Shown: one piece after another, positions 45,810-63,887 of the stretch
Numbering within the stretch: position 1 is the stretch's first letter
How the letters are laid out: each line of letters starts with the position of its first letter
Assembly: GCF_027497255.1 (NCBI RefSeq)
Contig: NZ_CP114903.1
Coordinates: 2,542,001 to 2,606,000, forward strand
Length of the DNA: 64,000 nucleotides
Source: Micromonospora sp. WMMD882
GTDB taxonomy: Bacteria > Actinomycetota > Actinomycetes > Mycobacteriales > Micromonosporaceae
Reading direction: 5' to 3'
Position numbers and translations under genes: made by a program
The notes under the pieces: model-generated
Databases searched by the model: none
What the model saw: only the letters and a program-made list of their open reading frames with translations
What the model was told of the DNA's origin: nothing

Positions 45810-46041
45810 CCCGCCACGCCCCGCGCCGGGGCCGGGGTCACCGGGTCCGGCAGACCTGTCCCCGCTCCGGTCCGCCGTCGGCGCCCGCGCGGCGGCGGTG
45901 ACCGTACGCCCCCGCGTCGACCCCGAGGGTCACCGGCGGCGCTCCCCGCGCCGCGTCGCCTGGCGACCTGTCGTACCGCTGAGGCAGGATGCAGCACGTG
46001 TGCCCTGAGCGAGACGAGCGACCACGCAGCGGAGTCCGACG

Positions 46042-47805
46042 ATGACCGACGGCCCGGCGGCCCCCGACGCCCTCGACGTCCCCGGTGAGGAGGTCGGGCG
46101 GGTGCTCGGCACCGCCGACGCCACCCCGCTGACCTTCTGGACCGCGGTCTCCGCCGACAGCTACCTGCAACTCGACGACGTGGTGGTGACCCGCCGCGAC
46201 CTGCCCGACCGGGAGCCGGTGACCATCGCCGGGGTGGTGACCCAGGTGCGCGCCCGGCACGAGGGCGCCCAGTTCGACTCGGACGTGTTCGCCATCGCCG
46301 ACGGCACCCTGCCGGCGATGGTGCAGGAGGCCGCCGAGATCACCACCACCCGGGTCGACCCGGAGCTGTACGTGCCGCCCACCCCCGGCGCGGTGGTGTG
46401 CCGGGCCGAGGGCGACGCCCGGGCCCGGGCGCTGCACTTCGACCGGATGGAACGCCGCATCCCGATGGGCACCGGCCGGGACGGGGTGCCGGTCTACCTC
46501 AACGCCGACTTCCTCGACGGCAGCCGGGGCGCGCACGTGTCGATCTCCGGCATCTCCGGGGTGGCGACCAAGACCAGCTTCGCCACGTTCCTGCTCTACT
46601 CGGTGTTCCGCTCCGGGGTGCTCGGCGGTGACGCGGTCAACGCCAAGGCGCTGATCTTCAACGTCAAGGGCGAGGACCTCCTCTTCCTCGACCACCCCAA
46701 CACCCGTCTCGACGACGCGACCCGGGCCGCGTACGCGAAGCTCGGGCTGGCCGCCGGGGCGTTCCCGGACGTGCGGGTGTACGCCCCGCCGCGGCCCGGT
46801 GACGCCTCCGGCACCCCGGACGTGAGCAGCCGGCTGACCGGCGTGGACAGCTTCTACTGGACGTTGAGCGAGTTCTGCGCCGAGCGGCTGCTGCCGTACG
46901 TGTTCGCCGACGCCGACGACGAACGCCAGCAGTACACGATGGTGGTGCACTCGGTCACCGCCCACCTGGCCCGGTACGCCCAGCCGGCCGACGGCGGGGT
47001 GAGCGTCGACGGGGTGCGGCTCGGCTCGTACGCCGACCTGGTCGACCACGTCGTCGAGCAGCTCAACGACGACGAGACCCGGGGCGACTGGGCGGGCAGC
47101 GCGGTCGGCCTGGGCACGGTCAACGCGTTCGCCCGCCGGCTGATCGGCAGCAAGAAGGACCTGTCCCGGCTGATCCGCGGCGACCTGGCCACCCGCCGCC
47201 CGCACTCGATCAACACGGCGGAGAGCGCCCAGGTCACCGTGGTCGACCTGCACAACCTGCCGGACCGGGCGCAGCGGTTCGTGGTGGGCGTGACGCTGCG
47301 CGGCGAGTTCGAGCGCAAGGAGAAGGCCGGCACCGCCAAGCCGCTGCTCTTCGTCGTCCTCGACGAGCTGAACAAGTACGCCCCCCGGGAGGGCTCGTCC
47401 CCGATCAAGGAGGTCCTGCTGGACATCGCCGAGCGGGGCCGCTCGCTGGGGGTGATCCTGGTCGGCGCGCAGCAGACGGCGAGCGAGGTGGAACGCCGGA
47501 TCGTCACCAACTCGGCGATCCGGGTGGTGGGTCGGCTCGACCCGGCCGAGGCGTCCCGCCCGGAGTACGGCTTCCTCCCGCCCGCCCAGCGGCAGCGGGC
47601 GCTGCTGGCCAAGCCGGGCACCATGTTCGTCAACCAGCCGGACATCCCGGTGCCGCTCTGCCTGGAGTTCCCCTTCCCGGCCTGGGCGACCCGGGTCTCC
47701 GAGGCCGGTCGCGCCCCGTCGGAGACGCTCCGGTCGATCACCCAGGCGGCCGACCCGTTCGCGGTGGTCGGCTCCGGCGGCGCCGACGACGACATCCCGT
47801 TCTAG
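46042..47805 (+). CDS. herA: HerA-like hexameric DNA translocase ATPase
   Basis: The protein has 587 residues. An N-terminal beta-barrel of HAS-barrel type (about 17-125) is followed by a RecA/FtsK-fold ATPase with Walker A GISGVATKTS (170-179, Lys177), Walker B LLFVVLDELNKYAP and an Arg/Gln sensor block GVILVGAQQTASEVERRIV. HerA motors pump DNA to the NurA nuclease in archaea. The C-terminus is DDDIPF, identical to the tip of single-stranded-DNA-binding protein, which recruits repair enzymes. It is first of an operon with sbcD (13-base gap), sbcC and a NurA-like gene. The ATG has CGGAG about 7 bases upstream. Confidence 0.88.
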   Translation: MTDGPAAPDALDVPGEEVGRVLGTADATPLTFWTAVSADSYLQLDDVVVTRRDLPDREPVTIAGVVTQVRARHEGAQFDSDVFAIADGTLPAMVQEAAEITTTRVDPELYVPPTPGAVVCRAEGDARARALHFDRMERRIPMGTGRDGVPVYLNADFLDGSRGAHVSISGISGVATKTSFATFLLYSVFRSGVLGGDAVNAKALIFNVKGEDLLFLDHPNTRLDDATRAAYAKLGLAAGAFPDVRVYAPPRPGDASGTPDVSSRLTGVDSFYWTLSEFCAERLLPYVFADADDERQQYTMVVHSVTAHLARYAQPADGGVSVDGVRLGSYADLVDHVVEQLNDDETRGDWAGSAVGLGTVNAFARRLIGSKKDLSRLIRGDLATRRPHSINTAESAQVTVVDLHNLPDRAQRFVVGVTLRGEFERKEKAGTAKPLLFVVLDELNKYAPREGSSPIKEVLLDIAERGRSLGVILVGAQQTASEVERRIVTNSAIRVVGRLDPAEASRPEYGFLPPAQRQRALLAKPGTMFVNQPDIPVPLCLEFPFPAWATRVSEAGRAPSETLRSITQAADPFAVVGSGGADDDIPF

Positions 47806-47818
47806 GGGGTAACCACCT

Positions 47819-48967
47819 GTGAAGATCCTGCACACCTCCGACTGGCACGTCGGCAAGGTGCTCAAGGGGCGGTCCCGGGCCGAGGAGCACAAGCAGGTCC
47901 TCGCCCAGGTGATCGAGATCGCCCGCCAGGAGCAGCCCGACCTGGTGATCGTCGCCGGTGACCTCTACGACAGCGGGGCGCCCACGCCGGAGGCCACCCG
48001 GCTGGTCACCCGGGCGTTGACCGCGCTGCGACGCACCGGCGCGGACGTGGTCGCCATCGGCGGCAACCACGACAACGGCCCGGCCCTGGACGCGCTGCGC
48101 CCCTGGGCCGAGGCGGCCGGCGTCACCCTGCGCGGCAGCGTCCGGGACTCCCCCGCCGACCTGATCGTCGACGGCGTCACCCGCGACGGCGAGCGCTGGC
48201 AGGTGGCCGCGCTGCCGTTCCTCTCCCAGCGGTACGCGGTCCGCGCGGTGGAGATGTACGAGCTGACCGCCGCCGAGGCCACCCAGACGTACGCCGACCA
48301 CCTGGGCCGGCTGGTCGCCCGGCTCACCGAGGGGTTCACCGAGCCGGACCGGGTGCACCTGGTCACCGCGCACCTGACCGTGACCGGGGCGAGCGTCGGC
48401 GGCGGCGAGCGGGACGCGCACACCGTCCTCGGGTACGCCGTGCCGGCCACCGTCTTCCCGGGCAACGCGCACTACGTGGCGCTCGGGCACCTGCACCGCG
48501 CCCAGCGGGTCGACGGGCCGTGCCCGGTGCGCTACAGCGGCAGCCCGATCGCGGTGGACTTCGGCGAGCAGGAGAACGTCTGCTCGGTGACCCTTGTCGA
48601 GGTGACCGCCACCGCGGCGGCCCGGGTCCGGGAGGTGCCGGTGGCCGGGGCGGTGCCGCTGCGCACCGTACGCGGCACCCTCGCCGAGCTGGCCGAGGCG
48701 ACCCCGCCGGAGGGGTGGCTGCGGGTGTTCGTCCGGGAGCAGCCCCGGGCCGGCCTGCGGGAGGAGGTCCAGGAGCTGCTGCCGGGGGCGCTGGAGATCC
48801 GCGTCGACCCGGAGCTGCTGCCCGCCCCGGGCGGCGGGGCGCGCGCCGCCCAGCGGGCCGGCCGGTCCCCCCGGCAGCTCTTCGCCGACTACCTGGACAG
48901 TCGGGGGCACGCCGACGACGAGGTGCGCGAGCTGTTCGACGAGCTGTTCGAGGAGGTCGACCGCTGA
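47819..48967 (+). CDS. sbcD: Exonuclease subunit SbcD (Mre11-type)
   Basis: The 382-residue metallophosphoesterase nuclease has five phosphoesterase motifs: LHTSDWHVGK, VAGDLYDSG, GGNHDNG, LVTAHLT and LGHLHRAQ, the two-Mn2+ site. A C-terminal capping region follows, ending FDELFEEVDR. With SbcC it forms the Mre11-Rad50-type complex that opens hairpins and processes double-strand ends. The GTG at 47819 has AGGGGGT about 8 bases upstream. Its stop and the sbcC start share one base (TGATG). Confidence 0.95.
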   Translation: MKILHTSDWHVGKVLKGRSRAEEHKQVLAQVIEIARQEQPDLVIVAGDLYDSGAPTPEATRLVTRALTALRRTGADVVAIGGNHDNGPALDALRPWAEAAGVTLRGSVRDSPADLIVDGVTRDGERWQVAALPFLSQRYAVRAVEMYELTAAEATQTYADHLGRLVARLTEGFTEPDRVHLVTAHLTVTGASVGGGERDAHTVLGYAVPATVFPGNAHYVALGHLHRAQRVDGPCPVRYSGSPIAVDFGEQENVCSVTLVEVTATAAARVREVPVAGAVPLRTVRGTLAELAEATPPEGWLRVFVREQPRAGLREEVQELLPGALEIRVDPELLPAPGGGARAAQRAGRSPRQLFADYLDSRGHADDEVRELFDELFEEVDR

Positions 48968-51441
48968 TGCGCCCGATGCGGCTGGACATGGCCGGCTTCA
49001 CCGTCTTCCGCGAGGAGACCGTCGTCGACTTCACCGACGCGGACTTCTTCGCCCTGGTCGGGCCGACCGGCTCGGGCAAGTCGACGGTGCTGGACGCGAT
49101 CTGCTTCGCCCTCTACGGCACGGTGCCCCGGTGGGGCGGCGCGCGGGGGCTGGCCAACGCGCTCGCCCCGTCCGCCGCCGAGGCCCGGGTCCGGCTGGTC
49201 TTCGAGTCCGCCGGTGACCGGTACGTGGCGACCCGGGTGGTGCGCCGGGACGGCCGGGGCAACGTCAAGACCGCCGGCGCCGGGTTGCAGCTCATGCCGG
49301 CCGGTTTCGACGTGACCAAGCTCGACACCGGGCTCAGCCCGGAGGATCTGGGCGAGGTGCTGGCCGGCACCCCGGCCGAGATGGAGCAGGCGGTGCTGGA
49401 GGCGGTCGGGCTGCCGTACGAGCAGTTCACCAGTTGCGTGGTGCTGCCGCAGGGCCAGTTCGCCGACTTCCTGCACGCCCGGCCGGCCACCCGGCAGCAG
49501 ATCCTGGTCAACCTGCTCGGTCTCGGCGTCTACGAGCAGGTGCAGAAGCGGGCCGCCGAACGGGCCGGGCGGGCCGAGGCGGGGCTGGAGGCGGTGGACC
49601 GGGTGCTCGCCGGGCTCACCGACGTCGACGACGCGACGCTGGCGCAGGCGCAGACCGGGGTGGACCGGGCGCGCGAGCTGGCCGCCGCGGTGGCCGCCGC
49701 CGTACCGGAGCGGGACGCGGCGCGGGCGGCGGCCTCGGCGGCCCGGACGGCGCTGGCCGCCCTGGACGCCGACCTGGCCGCCCTGGACGCGGTCCACGGC
49801 CCGGCCGGGGTGGCCGAGGTGGCCGCGGCGGTCACCGCCGCCCGCGCCGGGGTGGACGAGGCGGCGCGGGCGGTGGCGTTGGCCGAGGAGCGGGAGGAGA
49901 AACTGCGCGGCGAGGTGACCGGCGCGGGCGACGAGAGCACGCTGCGGCTGCTGTTGAAGGCGTACGCCGACCGCGGGCGGCTGGCCGTCGAGGCGGCGTC
50001 GGTGGCGGTCGCGGTCGCCGACGCGCAACGCGAGCACGACGCGGCGACCGACGCGCTGGCCCAGGCCCGGGCGGCCGCTGAGCGGGCCGAAACCGAGCTG
50101 GAGGCGGCGTTCCGGGCGCACGAGGAGGCGAAGACCACCGACCAGGCGGTGGCGTTGCGGGCGCACCTGGTCGTCGGGGCGTCCTGCCCGGTGTGCGAGC
50201 AGGTGGTGCCCCGGGCGCCGGCGGTGCCGGCCGGGTCGGCGGTGGCCCGGGCGCTCGCCGCCGGCAGGACGGCCCGCGCGGCCAGCGAGGCCGCGAAGCG
50301 GACCACGCAGGAGCGCGACGCCGCCGCCCGGGGCCTGGAGCGAACGCTGCTGCGGGCCCGCGCCCAGCACGAGCAGCTCACCGGCCGGCTCGCCGAGCTG
50401 GACGACCAGCTCGCCGGGGCGGCCACCGAGGACGCGCTGCGGCACGACCTGGCCGAGCACGCCCGACTGCGGGGCGCCCTCGACGAGGCGGCCGGCGCGG
50501 TCCGGGCGGGGCGGGACGCGGCCCGGCGGGCCCGGGCCGCCCTCGACGCGGCCGAGGAGCGGCTGCGGGCCGCGTGGCGCGAGTTCGACTCGGTCCGTGA
50601 CGGGCTGGCCCGGTTCGGCCCGCCGGTCGCCGACCGGGACGACGTCGCCGCCGCCTGGGCGACGCTGGCCGGCTGGGCCGGCGGCGAGTCGACGCGGCGA
50701 CGCGCCGACCGGGACGGGCTGGTCGGGTCGGTCACCGGGGCCGAGACGGCCGCCGAGGCGGCGCAGCAGCGGATCGGGGAGCTCTTCGCCGCCGCCGGCC
50801 TGCCGGTGGACGACGACCCGGTCCGGGCGGCCACGGTGGCGGTGGAGCGGGCCGAGGCGGCGCGCCGGCGGCTGGTGGAGCGCCGGGAGCAGGCCGCCGG
50901 GCTGCGTGAGCAGCGGGCCGGGCACGAACGCGACGCCCGGGTGGCCCGCGCGCTGGCCGGTCACCTGCGGGCCAACAACTTCGAGCGGTGGCTGCTGGCG
51001 GAGGCGTTGGACCTGCTGGTCGACGGGGCCTCCGGGATCCTGCGGGAGCTCTCCGGCGGGCAGTACGACCTGGTGCACGACAAGGGCGAGTTCTTCGTGG
51101 TCGACCAGTACGACGCCGGGCTGCGGCGCGGGGTGCGGACGCTCTCCGGCGGGGAGACGTTCCAGGCGTCGCTGGCCCTGGCGCTGGCGTTGTCGGAGCA
51201 GTTGGCCGGGTTGTCCACCACGGCGGCCAGCCTGGAGTCGATCGTGCTGGACGAGGGCTTCGGCACGCTCGACGCGACCACCCTGGACACCGTCGCGGCC
51301 ACCCTGGAGAGCCTGGCCGCCCGGGGCGACCGGATGGTCGGGGTGGTCACCCACGTGCCGGCGCTCGCCGAGCGGATCCCGGTCCGCTTCGAGGTCCACA
51401 AGGACGCCCGCAGCGCCCGGGTGGAACGGACCGGCCGGTGA
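48967..51441 (+). CDS. sbcC: Exonuclease subunit SbcC (Rad50-type SMC ATPase)
   Basis: The 824-residue protein has N-terminal Walker A LVGPTGSGKSTVLDAICFAL with the Q-loop segment VLPQGQFADFLHA. Two long Ala/Glu/Arg-rich coiled coils (about 195-395 and 425-640) are separated by a zinc hook CPVCEQ (about 405). The C-terminal ABC signature LSGGETFQASLALAL and Walker B SIVLDEGFGTLD follow. It is shorter than E. coli SbcC (1048), as usual in actinomycetes. The ATG at 48967 overlaps the sbcD stop; a second ATG 9 bases on is possible. Its stop overlaps the NurA-like GTG. Confidence 0.95.
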   Translation: MRPMRLDMAGFTVFREETVVDFTDADFFALVGPTGSGKSTVLDAICFALYGTVPRWGGARGLANALAPSAAEARVRLVFESAGDRYVATRVVRRDGRGNVKTAGAGLQLMPAGFDVTKLDTGLSPEDLGEVLAGTPAEMEQAVLEAVGLPYEQFTSCVVLPQGQFADFLHARPATRQQILVNLLGLGVYEQVQKRAAERAGRAEAGLEAVDRVLAGLTDVDDATLAQAQTGVDRARELAAAVAAAVPERDAARAAASAARTALAALDADLAALDAVHGPAGVAEVAAAVTAARAGVDEAARAVALAEEREEKLRGEVTGAGDESTLRLLLKAYADRGRLAVEAASVAVAVADAQREHDAATDALAQARAAAERAETELEAAFRAHEEAKTTDQAVALRAHLVVGASCPVCEQVVPRAPAVPAGSAVARALAAGRTARAASEAAKRTTQERDAAARGLERTLLRARAQHEQLTGRLAELDDQLAGAATEDALRHDLAEHARLRGALDEAAGAVRAGRDAARRARAALDAAEERLRAAWREFDSVRDGLARFGPPVADRDDVAAAWATLAGWAGGESTRRRADRDGLVGSVTGAETAAEAAQQRIGELFAAAGLPVDDDPVRAATVAVERAEAARRRLVERREQAAGLREQRAGHERDARVARALAGHLRANNFERWLLAEALDLLVDGASGILRELSGGQYDLVHDKGEFFVVDQYDAGLRRGVRTLSGGETFQASLALALALSEQLAGLSTTAASLESIVLDEGFGTLDATTLDTVAATLESLAARGDRMVGVVTHVPALAERIPVRFEVHKDARSARVERTGR

Positions 51442-52403
51442 GCCGGCCCGGGTTCTTCGTCGACGCGTGGGATCCGGCGTACGGGGCGTCGTTCGAGGCG
51501 TCGGCGCTCGGCCCGGCCGCCCCGAGCAGCGGCCAGGTCGACCCGGACGTCGAGCTGCCGGCGGCGGACTGGCGGGCGCTCGGCCCGGCCGTCGGCGTGC
51601 GCTCCCCGGAGGTCGTGCTGCTGGTCGACGGGGTGCGCCGGATCGACGCCAGCGTCTGGACGGCCGAGGCGGACGGCGTGTCGTACCCGGGGATCGCCGC
51701 CTCGTACGCGGCCGGGGTGGTCCGCTGCGACCTGGGTCGGGGCGTGGCGGAGCTGGCCGGGGCGCGGGTGGCCCGGGGGCTGTTCACGGCCAGCCCGTCG
51801 GCCGGGGACGTGGTGGCCGGCTCGGTCCGCTACCCGGTGCGCCGGGTCGGCGGCAGCGGTGAGCTGAGCAAGCTGCCGGCCGCCGTGCAGGGCCCGTTGA
51901 CCGCGCTGGAGGTGGAGGTCTCCGACGCCGCCCGCGTCGACGGCGACCTGCTGGTGGTGGACGGTCCGCTGCGCGCCCGGCGGCAGTTGCCGCGCACCCT
52001 CGGGTACGTCAAGACGCAGCACAGCCAGTACCTCGACGCCCGGTTGGCGGCGGTGGTGACCGGGCTGACGCCGGGGCAGCGCTGCCCGGTGTTCCGGCTG
52101 GGCATCGGCACCGCCTGGGGCAGTTGGTCGTGGTATCTCCGGCTGCCGGTGACCCGGGGCGCGCCGTGGGCCGGCATCGTGCGGGTGGAGTGCTCACCGG
52201 ACCTGACCCCGGCCGAGGCGGTCGCGCTGGCCGACCTGTCCCTGGTCACCCTGCCGCGGTTCGCCTCCACCCCGTACAAGGACCCGCGCGCCCCGCAGAA
52301 CCTGATCCCGATCGCCGGGCTGGAGCGTCGGCTGCGCAGCCTGCTCGGTGACGCCCGGCTGCTGCACCGCGCCCTGTCCGCCTCCGCCCGCCGGGCCCGC
52401 TGA
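51438..52403 (+). CDS. nurA: NurA-like 5'-3' nuclease, last gene of the HerA-SbcDC operon
   Basis: The protein has 321 residues. NurA-type features: an acidic strand EVVLLVDGVRRIDASVW (Asp64), a second strand LLVVDGPLRARRQLP (Asp175), then LGYVKT (Lys192), which correspond to the VDG / DGPL / GxxK blocks of the NurA RNase-H-like nuclease fold. YKDPRAPQNLIPIAGLERRL forms the C-terminal conserved region. Assignment rests on these blocks plus position behind herA-sbcD-sbcC, the same order as archaeal herA-mre11-rad50-nurA operons. The GTG overlaps the sbcC stop by 4 bases. It probably degrades the 5' strand during end resection (inference). Confidence 0.75.
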   Translation: MSRPGFFVDAWDPAYGASFEASALGPAAPSSGQVDPDVELPAADWRALGPAVGVRSPEVVLLVDGVRRIDASVWTAEADGVSYPGIAASYAAGVVRCDLGRGVAELAGARVARGLFTASPSAGDVVAGSVRYPVRRVGGSGELSKLPAAVQGPLTALEVEVSDAARVDGDLLVVDGPLRARRQLPRTLGYVKTQHSQYLDARLAAVVTGLTPGQRCPVFRLGIGTAWGSWSWYLRLPVTRGAPWAGIVRVECSPDLTPAEAVALADLSLVTLPRFASTPYKDPRAPQNLIPIAGLERRLRSLLGDARLLHRALSASARRAR

Positions 52404-52424: not shown

Positions 52425-53282
52425 ATGGGGCGGCGGCGGGGTGGCGACCGGGTGGTCGAGCGGGTCGACACCGGCGAGGCGGAGCTGACGCCCGACGCCG
52501 ACCGGGCCGGCTCGTGGACGCTGCTGCTGGACGGCACGCCGCAGTCGCACGTCGACCTGACCGACCCGACGCACCTGGAGTTCGAGTACGTGCGCCGGCT
52601 GGCCGCCGCGATCGACCTGGTCGCCCCGGCCGGCGCGCCGCTGCGGGCGCTGCACCTGGGCGGCGGCGCGCTGACCCTGCCCCGGTACGTCGCGGCCACC
52701 CGCCCCGGGTCGACGCAGCGGGTGTCCGAGGTGGACGGCGCGCTGGTGGAGCTGGTCCGTCGGGCGCTGCCCTGGCCGGCGGAGGCCCGGCTGCGGGTGC
52801 GGGTCGCCGACGCCCGCGAGACGCTGACGTCCACCCGGGACGCCGCGTACGACCTGGTGGTCGCCGACGTGTTCGCCGGCGCCCGCACCCCGGCCCACCT
52901 GACCTCGGTGGAGTACGCCGCCGAGGTGGCCCGGGTGCTGCGTCCGGGCGGCTGGTACCTGGCGAACCTGGCCGACGGCCCGCCGCTGCGGTACGCCCGC
53001 GCCCAGGTGGCGACGGTCCGCTCGGTGCTGCCCCGGGCCTGCCTGGTGGGTGACGCCGGGGTGCTGCGTGGTCGCCGGTACGGCAACCTGGTGCTGGTCG
53101 CCGGCCGGGACGAGCCGCCGGTAGCGGCGTTGACCCGGCGGGCCGCCGGGGACTGGTTCCCCGGCCGGGTGCTGGCCGGCGCGGAGCTGGACCGGTTCGT
53201 CGGCGGCGCGGCGGTGGTGCGGGACGCCGACGCCACCCCCTCCACGCCACCCCCGCCCGGAATTTTTTCCGTCCGCCGTTGA
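52425..53282 (+). CDS. Spermidine-synthase-like methyltransferase-fold protein
   Basis: The 285-residue protein has a short N-terminal beta region (SWTLLLDGTPQSHVDLTDPT), as in polyamine synthases. A Rossmann core follows with LRALHLGGGALTLPRYVAAT (motif I), RVSEVDGALVELVRRAL, YDLVVADVFAGARTPAHLTS and VLRPGGWYLANLADG. Such proteins in actinomycetes are annotated as fused spermidine synthases. The canonical decarboxylated-SAM/putrescine residues are not evident, so the activity is open. It is on the same strand as, and 21 bases after, the NurA-like gene. Confidence 0.8.
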   Translation: MGRRRGGDRVVERVDTGEAELTPDADRAGSWTLLLDGTPQSHVDLTDPTHLEFEYVRRLAAAIDLVAPAGAPLRALHLGGGALTLPRYVAATRPGSTQRVSEVDGALVELVRRALPWPAEARLRVRVADARETLTSTRDAAYDLVVADVFAGARTPAHLTSVEYAAEVARVLRPGGWYLANLADGPPLRYARAQVATVRSVLPRACLVGDAGVLRGRRYGNLVLVAGRDEPPVAALTRRAAGDWFPGRVLAGAELDRFVGGAAVVRDADATPSTPPPPGIFSVRR

Positions 53283-57942: not shown

Positions 57943-59040
57943 GTGGAGCTGCCGCTGAGTGCCTCGATCGAGCCGATGCTGGCCAGGAGCGTCCCCCGGA
58001 TCCCCACCGGCCCGGGGATGACCTACGAGCCCAAGTGGGACGGCTTCCGCTGCATCGTGCTGCGCGACGGCGACGAGGTCGAGCTGGCCAGCCGGGGCGG
58101 CAAGACGCTGACCCGGTACTTCCCCGAGGTGATCGCCCAGGCCCGCCGCCAGTTGCCGGCGCGGTGCGCGGTCGACGGCGAGCTGGTCGTGATCCGGCGG
58201 GACGGCCCGGACGGGCAGCCGCGCCTCGACTTCGACCTGCTCGCCCAGCGGATCCACCCGGCGGCCTCCCGGGTGAAGCTGCTCGCCGAGACCACCCCGG
58301 CCGACTTCGTGGCCTTCGACCTGCTCGCGCTCGGCGACGAGAGCCTGCTCGACCAGCCGTACCCGCGGCGGCGGGCCCGGCTGGTCGAGGCGCTGGCCGG
58401 GGTCCGGCCACCGGTGCACGTCACCCCGGTCACCACCGACGTGGACACCGCCCGCCGGTGGTTCGACATCTTCGAGGGCGCCGGGCTGGACGGGCTGATC
58501 GCCAAGCCGGCCGACCTGCCGTACGAGCCGGGCAAACGGTTGATGTCCAAGGTCAAGCACGCCCGGACGGCCGACGCCGTGGTGGCCGGCTTCCGCTGGC
58601 ACAAGTCCGGCCCGGTGGTCGGCTCGCTGCTGCTCGGCCTCCACGACGCCGAGGGCACGCTGCACCACGTCGGGGTGTGCGCCTCGTTCACCATGGCCCG
58701 CCGGGCCGAGCTGCTGACCGAGTTGGCGCCGTACCGGGACGTCGGCGGCGAGCATCCCTGGGCGCACGGCGACCACGAGCGCGGCCAGCGCATCCCGGGC
58801 GGGGTGAGCCGGTGGACCGGCGGCAAGAACCTCGAATGGGAGCCGCTGCGCCCGGAGCTGGTGGTCGAGGTCGGCTACGACGCCATGGAGGGCGACCGGT
58901 TCCGGCACACCGCCCAGTTCGTCCGCTGGCGGCCGGACCGGGATCCGCGTTCGTGCGGCTACGACCAGTTGGAGCGGCCGGTCCGCTTCGACGTGGACCA
59001 GGTGCTCCGGGGTGATCCGACGCCGACCGCCGGAGGCTGA
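57943..59040 (+). CDS. ligC: ATP-dependent DNA ligase, LigC type
   Basis: The 365-residue nucleotidyltransferase has motif I YEPKWDGFRCIV (Lys34 adenylated), VELASRGGKTLTRYF (motif Ia/II region), VDGELVVI (motif III), DGLIAKPADLPYEPGKR (motif IV) and MSKVKHARTADAVV (motif V), plus a C-terminal OB-fold. Its length and lack of other domains match actinobacterial LigC, which joins nicks in base-excision or alternative end-joining repair with stand-alone LigD-type polymerases. One such polymerase gene lies about 4 kb away at 62865. The GTG start has no Shine-Dalgarno. Confidence 0.93.
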   Translation: MELPLSASIEPMLARSVPRIPTGPGMTYEPKWDGFRCIVLRDGDEVELASRGGKTLTRYFPEVIAQARRQLPARCAVDGELVVIRRDGPDGQPRLDFDLLAQRIHPAASRVKLLAETTPADFVAFDLLALGDESLLDQPYPRRRARLVEALAGVRPPVHVTPVTTDVDTARRWFDIFEGAGLDGLIAKPADLPYEPGKRLMSKVKHARTADAVVAGFRWHKSGPVVGSLLLGLHDAEGTLHHVGVCASFTMARRAELLTELAPYRDVGGEHPWAHGDHERGQRIPGGVSRWTGGKNLEWEPLRPELVVEVGYDAMEGDRFRHTAQFVRWRPDRDPRSCGYDQLERPVRFDVDQVLRGDPTPTAGG

Positions 59041-62864: not shown

Positions 62865-63887
62865 TCAGGCGTTCTCCGGGCGGGCCCGGGACGGCTGCAC
62901 CCGCTTCGGTTCGCCGGGCATCTTCGGATGGTCCGGCGGGTACGGCAGGTCACCCGAGCCGGCGGCGTCGTCCCGGTCGGCCCAGTCCAGCAGGGGGGTG
63001 ATGTCCCACGGGTCGTCGTCGATGCCGGCGTGCGGGTCGCCGCGCTCGGCCAGCCGGGCCGGCACGCTGCCCAGGTGGAGGTCGTCCGGGTCGACGTCGG
63101 GCAGCTCGTCCCACTCCACCGGGGTGGAGACGGTGGCCCGCGCGTTGGCCCGCAGCGAGTACGCGCAGGCGATCGTCCGGTCCCGGGCCATCTGGTTGTA
63201 GTCGACGAAGACGTGCGCCCCGCGCTGCTCCTTCCACCACGCTGTGGTGATCAGGTCGGGGCGGCGACGCTCCAGCTCCCGGGCCAGCGCGATGGTCGCC
63301 CGACGCACCTCGGTGAACGTCCAGCGCGGGGCGATGCGCAGATAGACGTGCACCCCCCGGCCGCCGGAGGTCTTCGGCCAGCCGGTGACGCCCAACTCGT
63401 CGAGGAGGGCACGCAGCTCACCGGCGGCGGTCACCGCGTCGGCGAAGTCGGTGCCCGGCTGCGGATCCAGGTCGATCCGCAGCTCGTCGGGGCGGTCCAC
63501 GTCGGCGGAGCGCACCGGCCACGGGTGGAACACGATCGTCCCCATCTGGGCGGCCCACGCCACGTGCGCCAGGTCGGCCGGGCAGAGCTCGTCGGCGCCA
63601 CGCCCGCTGGGGAACTCGATCCGGGCGGTCTCGACCCAGGGCGGGACGCCCCGGGACGGCACCCGCTTCTGGAAGAACATCTCCCCCTCGACGCCGTCGG
63701 GGAAGCGTTGCAGCGTCGTCGGGCGACGCCGCAACGCCCGCATGATGCCGTCGCCGACCGCGAGGTAGTAGTGGAAGACGTCCGCCTTGGTGAACCCGGG
63801 GCCCGGATAGATCACCCGGTCCGGGCTGCTCAACCGGACCGCGCGCCCGGCGACCTCGACCTCGACGGCCTTGCTGGTGCCACCCAT
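62865..63887 (-). CDS. Stand-alone LigD-type polymerase/primase (archaeo-eukaryotic primase fold)
   Basis: The 340-residue protein has an N-terminal block SSPDRVIYPGPGFTKADVFHYYL. The Mg2+-binding DxD lies in LRIDLDPQPGTDF, GWPKTSGGRGVHVYLRI is the nucleotide-binding SGGRG, and VFVDYNQMARDRTIACAYSL is a conserved basic patch. There is no ligase or phosphoesterase domain. Such proteins (PolD/LigD-Pol) add ribonucleotides and fill gaps in end-joining or excision repair, and pair with LigC. Ku is not in the window. A TATGGT -10 box 6 bases before the ATG indicates a leaderless transcript divergent from msrB. Confidence 0.92.
   Translation of the reverse strand: MGGTSKAVEVEVAGRAVRLSSPDRVIYPGPGFTKADVFHYYLAVGDGIMRALRRRPTTLQRFPDGVEGEMFFQKRVPSRGVPPWVETARIEFPSGRGADELCPADLAHVAWAAQMGTIVFHPWPVRSADVDRPDELRIDLDPQPGTDFADAVTAAGELRALLDELGVTGWPKTSGGRGVHVYLRIAPRWTFTEVRRATIALARELERRRPDLITTAWWKEQRGAHVFVDYNQMARDRTIACAYSLRANARATVSTPVEWDELPDVDPDDLHLGSVPARLAERGDPHAGIDDDPWDITPLLDWADRDDAAGSGDLPYPPDHPKMPGEPKRVQPSRARPENA

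Follow-up and report, generated by a model that had tools for sequence, protein, structure and literature searches.

In Sulfolobus and other archaea, one gene cluster encodes HerA, Mre11, Rad50 and NurA; the four Sulfolobus genes are reported to be co-transcribed (PMC2288612) and each of them to be essential (PMC4351679). Among bacteria, HerA-NurA of Deinococcus radiodurans (PDB 7F6D) is reported to resect the 5' strand during translocation (PMC9960219), and the portions of the sources on which we draw mention no linked sbcCD and describe a host without RecBCD/AddAB (PMC9960219; PMC4663267). In Oceanithermus profundus, a single species of another phylum, the herA homolog hepA is followed by sbcD and sbcC, which its authors liken to the archaeal system (PMC5448004). 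HerA-family ATPases with a partner nuclease also make up the SIR2-HerA, DUF4297-HerA and TdpAB anti-phage systems, and a TdpAB chain has a NurA-like fold in common with the NurA described below. To our knowledge, bacterial SbcCD is normally without HerA-NurA. Here, we describe a herA-sbcD-sbcC-nurA gene cluster in Micromonospora sp. WMMD882, located in a 64,000-nucleotide stretch (bases 2542001-2606000; hereafter the window) of a single-contig 6.37-Mb genome. It resembles the archaeal operon in encoding the same four protein families in one cluster (the archaeal gene order being taken from the original prediction for this DNA), and differs from it in that all four proteins are closest to bacterial chains, the host encodes AdnAB, and the type of promoter block is actinobacterial.

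We read the locus, with a probability of roughly 0.7, as a chromosomal, DNA-damage-inducible operon that processes broken DNA ends beside AdnAB. The computed support consists of four protein identities, intact catalytic residues, gene linkage, co-occurrence, a conserved promoter-like block, and the presence of AdnAB and PafBC. The original interpretation, that this may be a full end-resection machine (or a defence system) acting beside AdnAB/RecBCD, is supported. The four genes are open frames, adjacent and all on the forward strand (Table 1), and the coupling proposed for them holds at each junction: a 13-bp gap between herA and sbcD, a 1-base overlap between sbcD and sbcC, and a 4-base overlap between sbcC and nurA. 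Given these overlaps and one promoter-like block upstream, the genes would form a single transcript.

Table 1. Features of the herA-sbcD-sbcC-nurA locus (window positions).
Feature	Position	Strand	Remarks
RecA-NDp-like (RecA-independent damage promoter; PafBC-type) block, TGTCG-N11-CAGGAT	45969..45990	+	51 bp before herA
herA, bacterial-type HerA DNA translocase	46042..47805	+	587 aa; ATG start
sbcD, Mre11-family nuclease	47819..48967	+	382 aa; GTG start
sbcC, Rad50-family ATPase with zinc hook	48967..51441	+	824 aa; ATG start
nurA, bacterial-type NurA nuclease	51438..52403	+	321 aa; GTG start
Methyltransferase/spermidine-synthase-like gene	52425..53282	+	21 bp 3' of nurA; PF01564 E=1.6e-4, under cut-off

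The assignment of the last gene to NurA is confirmed by a profile of its relatives, for which the closest solved structure is Deinococcus NurA (PDB 7F6D; E=2e-51), and the product has the RNase-H-like NurA fold. Residues D64, K192 and R284 are invariant in a 34-row alignment and align with Deinococcus D53, K201 and R309, each reported to be required for nuclease activity (PMC9960219); the protein is thus a predicted nuclease with intact catalytic residues. On its own, the window NurA has no matches in Pfam, NCBIfam or PADLOC. It is missed by family models alone, since a PF09376 scan of the WMMD882 genome and the window NurA gave no match; PF09376 matches 18 of the 34 relatives at E up to 0.1 (best 2.1e-6), and the model looks insensitive to this branch of NurA.

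Likewise, Pfam does not recognize the window HerA as HerA from its sequence alone, and profiles of relatives do. Profile A2 (30 members) matches Deinococcus HerA (7f6d_B) over nearly its full length with E=2.1e-196; besides 7f6d, its sole PDB match at E up to 0.001 is 8xau_A (E=6.4e-5), which we take to be from a defence system. By count on the alignment, K177/T178, D212, D441/E442, R449 and R506 correspond to Deinococcus K175/T176, D220, D487/E488, R495 and R552; these are the Walker A lysine and threonine, the ASCE acid, Walker B and two DNA-translocation arginines (roles as given in PMC9960219). In A2, R449 is nearly invariant and the others are invariant. The claim of a HerA-like translocase therefore stands, and the Deinococcus proteins are the closest solved relatives of both HerA and NurA, with the same Walker, translocation and catalytic residues.

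SbcD and SbcC were also correctly named. SbcD, the only copy in the genome, scores above the family cut-off for TIGR00619 (177 bits versus 77.65; E=5.8e-52), has the phosphoesterase motifs DWH, GDLYD, GNHD and GHLH, and has SbcD chain 4lty_C as its best solved-structure match (E=5.4e-37). SbcC exceeds the Pfam cut-offs for AAA_23 and SbcC_Walker_B, contains GPTGSGKS, CPVC (one CxxC zinc hook), LSGGE and IVLDE, and best matches SbcC chain 6s6v_C among solved structures (E=1.1e-41); its TIGR00618 match (E=1.3e-76) reaches 258 bits, under the cut-off of 478. Thus, families and motifs are those of ordinary bacterial SbcCD, from which the WMMD882 SbcC differs in being shorter (824 aa versus 1048 for 6s6v_C).

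The four-gene operon is a core component of the Micromonosporaceae. NurA was found in 197 of 200 family genomes; the three misses are attributable to contig ends, into which herA, sbcD and sbcC run in all three. As predicted, gene order is conserved: herA-sbcD-sbcC-nurA occurs in 66 of 66 testable loci among the 80 named loci (the best 80 of 117 found), where only loci with more than 5.6 kb upstream were counted and 14 were left out as too short (one of these, L041, does show herA). Eight of nine long-contig regions taken from divergent family genera contain all four genes (L192 with only part of nurA), and nurA is outside the ninth region.

Beyond the family, HerA (E up to 1e-40) and NurA (E up to 1e-3) were each found in 76 of 396 Actinomycetota genomes, with both in 74, HerA only in two, NurA only in two, and neither in 318; a Fisher test on this co-occurrence ignores relatedness. 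In the two HerA-only genomes the contig ends after sbcD or sbcC, and the two NurA-only matches are weak (E of ~4e-4). The two genes are on the same strand and less than 20 kb apart in 69 of the 74 genomes with both, either nurA first (45 genomes, 9-331 bp between matches) or herA first (24 genomes, 3.5-18 kb between matches); the linkage is strong, not universal. All seven nurA-first loci examined have the order nurA, herA, sbcD, sbcC. A strong HerA match was obtained in 17 of 296 genomes of the class, and all four genes are present in 14 of 14 class members from other families with such a match. On a 32-row HerA tree, a single switch of gene order suffices (support 88/96), with two long branches that make deep placement unsure. 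Given an order kept in 66 of 66 family loci and a phylum-wide co-occurrence of HerA and NurA, the four-gene set is not a chance association. Names from Nonomuraea, Herbidospora, Frankia, Pseudonocardia, Geodermatophilus and some Streptomyces also occur among the NurA relatives (linkage was looked at there in one Nonomuraea record, L188).

In several genomes, herA and sbcD are separated by 0.6 to ~11 kb, and RNase II-type, oxidoreductase and phosphoesterase genes are among those found in between. Inserts of ~3-11 kb at this position have a common RNase II-type gene in L192 and L196 (74% identical), and a common gene without a Pfam match in L202 and L203 (59% identical). No gene is common to all inserts looked at, and a fifth partner encoded between herA and sbcD was rejected. 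One genome (G146:C15:14606-16809) encodes a second, divergent HerA (E=8e-78) beside a weak NurA match, in addition to the standard pair.

HerA matches were also identified in six plasmid and two phage records, the latter distant (26% and 24% identity). A 452-kb Streptomyces plasmid (L187) carries herA-sbcD-sbcC-nurA beside genes matching Wadjet JetA2-JetD2, with NurA annotated as a hypothetical protein and HerA as an ATP-binding protein. In this plasmid (1004-11337 and 11902-21848), the operon is flanked by these JetA2-D2-like genes as well as by a helicase and a protease of the ImmA/IrrE family. A cyanobacterial plasmid typed as conjugative (L189, 7955-14955) encodes a nurA-like gene (Pfam NurA E=0.0015, under cut-off), herA, sbcD and sbcC; its HerA has 46% identity to the window HerA.

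The promoter-like block before herA (letters TGTCGTACCGCTGAGGCAGGAT) is conserved in the aligned upstream regions of 65 loci and the window; TGTCG-N11-CAGGAT occurs in 52 of these 66 regions versus 39 of 3250 random windows from the same loci. Its spacing fits the consensus reported for the mycobacterial RecA-independent damage promoter, tTGTCRgtg-8nt-TannnT (PMC5656591), with C rather than T as first -10 base; a copy with the full consensus lies a short way upstream of recA in this genome. Among loci from other families, 10 of 30 have the full consensus before the operon's first gene, versus 90 of 9000 random control windows, which may overlap real promoters (30 being 40 loci minus nine without a called first gene and one, L158, that was too short; the ten positives include two near-identical sites, L167 and L171), the corresponding counts being 5 of 37 before sbcD and 0 of 35 before sbcC. 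No LexA box (TCGAACN4GTTCGA, up to two mismatches) was found between the RibD-like gene and herA; the whole window has eight matches against a shuffle mean of 1.73. The genome encodes homologs of PafB and PafC adjoining a Pup-ligase-family gene, and two adjacent helicase-nucleases match two chains of 6ppj/6ppu (E=2e-178 and 2e-235), which we take to be mycobacterial AdnA and AdnB. To judge from the promoter block, the operon is probably switched on by DNA damage.

Across the genome, TGTCGN10GCAGGAT matches exactly at six sites, and at 116 when up to one mismatch is allowed (reversed control: 24). Four of the six exact matches have TGTCGTACCN5GGCAGGAT; one of these is the herA block itself, and the others precede genes for a DUF899 protein, an Lhr-type helicase and a glyoxalase-like protein. 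Among the matches listed, a one-mismatch copy precedes a PD-(D/E)XK nuclease (picked afterwards because it adjoins a nuclease already noticed). These sites, apart from that of herA, are at 2356055, 2714642, 2978738 and 3659610 of the chromosome (DUF899, Lhr-type helicase, glyoxalase-like, PD-(D/E)XK nuclease), and together with it could constitute a small regulon. The recA gene (within 2695000-2698300) has Pfam RecA matches in two parts (1-198 and 193-262), ~1.1 kb apart in one 730-codon frame, as if an in-frame insert, for example an intein, split it.

In the mechanism that we propose, SbcD-SbcC, of the Mre11-Rad50 type, would bind and open blocked, hairpin or protein-capped ends, after which a HerA hexamer would take the end and pump duplex DNA into a docked NurA dimer; NurA would degrade the DNA, leaving a 3' single-stranded tail for RecA. 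HerA-NurA-SbcCD would work beside AdnAB, perhaps on ends closed to AdnAB. We infer the single transcript, the physical complex, induction by damage, the polarity of resection and the division of labour with AdnAB.

Several findings weigh against a damage-inducible operon for end processing. Five of the 74 genomes with both genes have no linkage, the genes being on different contigs (G183, G200, G258, G097 and G353); in G183, nurA follows sbcC near a contig end, and in G097 (L154) and G353 (L153), herA is on a separate contig and the ~7 kb upstream of nurA contain none of herA, sbcD and sbcC. In the class, 279 of 296 genomes are without a strong HerA match. Of the Deinococcus HerA residues D78, E80 and D81 that bind NurA, only D78 has an acidic counterpart (window D81, by hand count); these acidic residues are reported to align poorly in other bacteria (PMC9960219). 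The full RecA-NDp consensus occurs in none of the 66 family upstream regions, in which the Micromonosporaceae form has C at the first -10 base; 20 of the 30 loci in other families lack the consensus; and of the four exact herA-type copies, two lie before genes (DUF899 and glyoxalase-like) without a known repair role. Furthermore, HerA-NurA of Thermococcus kodakarensis is reported to degrade both strands, and the authors doubt resection and suggest an antiviral role (PMC12977600); deletions of nurA/herA in Deinococcus or Thermus are said to have modest effects on damage resistance or to improve it (PMC9960219).

A more far-reaching proposal, which we regard as tentative, is that the operon encodes a damage-induced second end machine whose genes have been passed down together across much of the Actinomycetota, in which SbcCD would hand cleaned ends directly to HerA-NurA within a supercomplex, parallel to AdnAB, and of which the plasmid copies would also shred foreign DNA.

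Rather unlikely, in our estimation, is that the four proteins serve primarily in innate defence, degrading foreign DNA (phage or plasmid) like other HerA-nuclease pairs, with repair as a secondary role. We keep a defence role under consideration because the Streptomyces plasmid copy adjoins Wadjet, and the literature is divided on whether HerA-NurA serves end resection or the destruction of foreign DNA (PMC12977600). Against this, NurA is near-ubiquitous in the family and some neighboring genes recur: of 78 named loci that extend far enough downstream, 76 have a methyltransferase gene 3' of nurA (within 504 bp in all 76), and a RibD-like gene is present in 60 of 64 testable named loci, always upstream and 0.1-4.5 kb away, but within 1.5 kb in just 33 of 61. 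The window HerA is far closer to Deinococcus HerA than to 8xau, and the promoter block is of a damage type. Neither SIR2 nor DUF4297 domains appear in the Pfam listing of the four genes and two neighbors, unlike the anti-phage HerA systems named above, and there is no recognized defence family among the Pfam matches of ten flanking window proteins (seven of which have matches, including transport, sigma and anti-sigma factor, PRiA4_ORF3 and ATP-dependent ligase). Repair is favoured because of the core status of the operon and its damage-type promoter.

Still less probable is that the operon combines two independent modules that have only the promoter in common and never act on the same end, with SbcCD trimming hairpins or blocked ends and HerA-NurA performing another job (e.g., chromosome segregation or clearing of stalled forks). 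Such independence would be consistent with Thermus, where nurA-hepA is reported to be followed by genes of glycine metabolism and not by sbcDC (PMC5448004), with the inserts between herA and sbcD, and with the separation of nurA from the other three genes in G097 and G353; it is opposed by linkage that has lasted across many families in two different orders, by the tight overlaps in the window, and by the reported binding of HerA by Sulfolobus Mre11 (PMC2288612). Finally, that the last gene encodes another RNase-H-like protein (e.g., an endonuclease V relative), leaving an ordinary SbcCD plus an ATPase, has in practice been refuted.

The methyltransferase gene is probably a neighbor and not part of the HerA-NurA-SbcCD machine; it was found in one of the nine divergent-genus regions (L190-L198) and was absent from all 40 loci of L141-L180. 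At ~5-11 kb 3' of the operon, the window encodes an ATP-dependent DNA ligase (57943-59040, forward strand) and a LigD-type primase-polymerase protein (62865-63887, reverse strand), which suggests that non-homologous end-joining factors are encoded nearby.

HerA and NurA have been stated to occur in few bacteria, such as Deinococcus-Thermus, that are without RecBCD/AddAB (PMC9960219; PMC4663267, in the portions on which we draw). This confinement does not hold here: a mesophilic family has HerA-NurA as a core component, in linkage with SbcCD and behind a damage-type promoter block, and the WMMD882 genome also encodes AdnAB. The archaeal operon and, in one bacterium, herA-sbcD-sbcC (PMC5448004) were already known; what appears to be new is a widespread actinomycete operon that has a promoter of damage type and occurs beside AdnAB. 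No paper on HerA-NurA or the four-gene operon in actinomycetes was among the matches listed in a search of titles and abstract starts, with subscription papers mostly outside its range. Some databases already use 'NurA domain-containing protein' or 'DNA double-strand break repair nuclease NurA' for relatives, and our analysis offers a function for many entries listed as 'hypothetical protein' (NurA) or 'ATP-binding protein' (HerA). In Sulfolobus, the role of HerA-NurA is hard to test because all four genes are reported to be essential (PMC4351679); a mesophile with AdnAB as back-up could permit clean deletions, epistasis analysis and phage tests. If the operon does encode a second end machine, HerA-NurA would belong to the mainstream of bacterial resection factors and would not be an archaeal import limited to a few thermophiles and deinococci.

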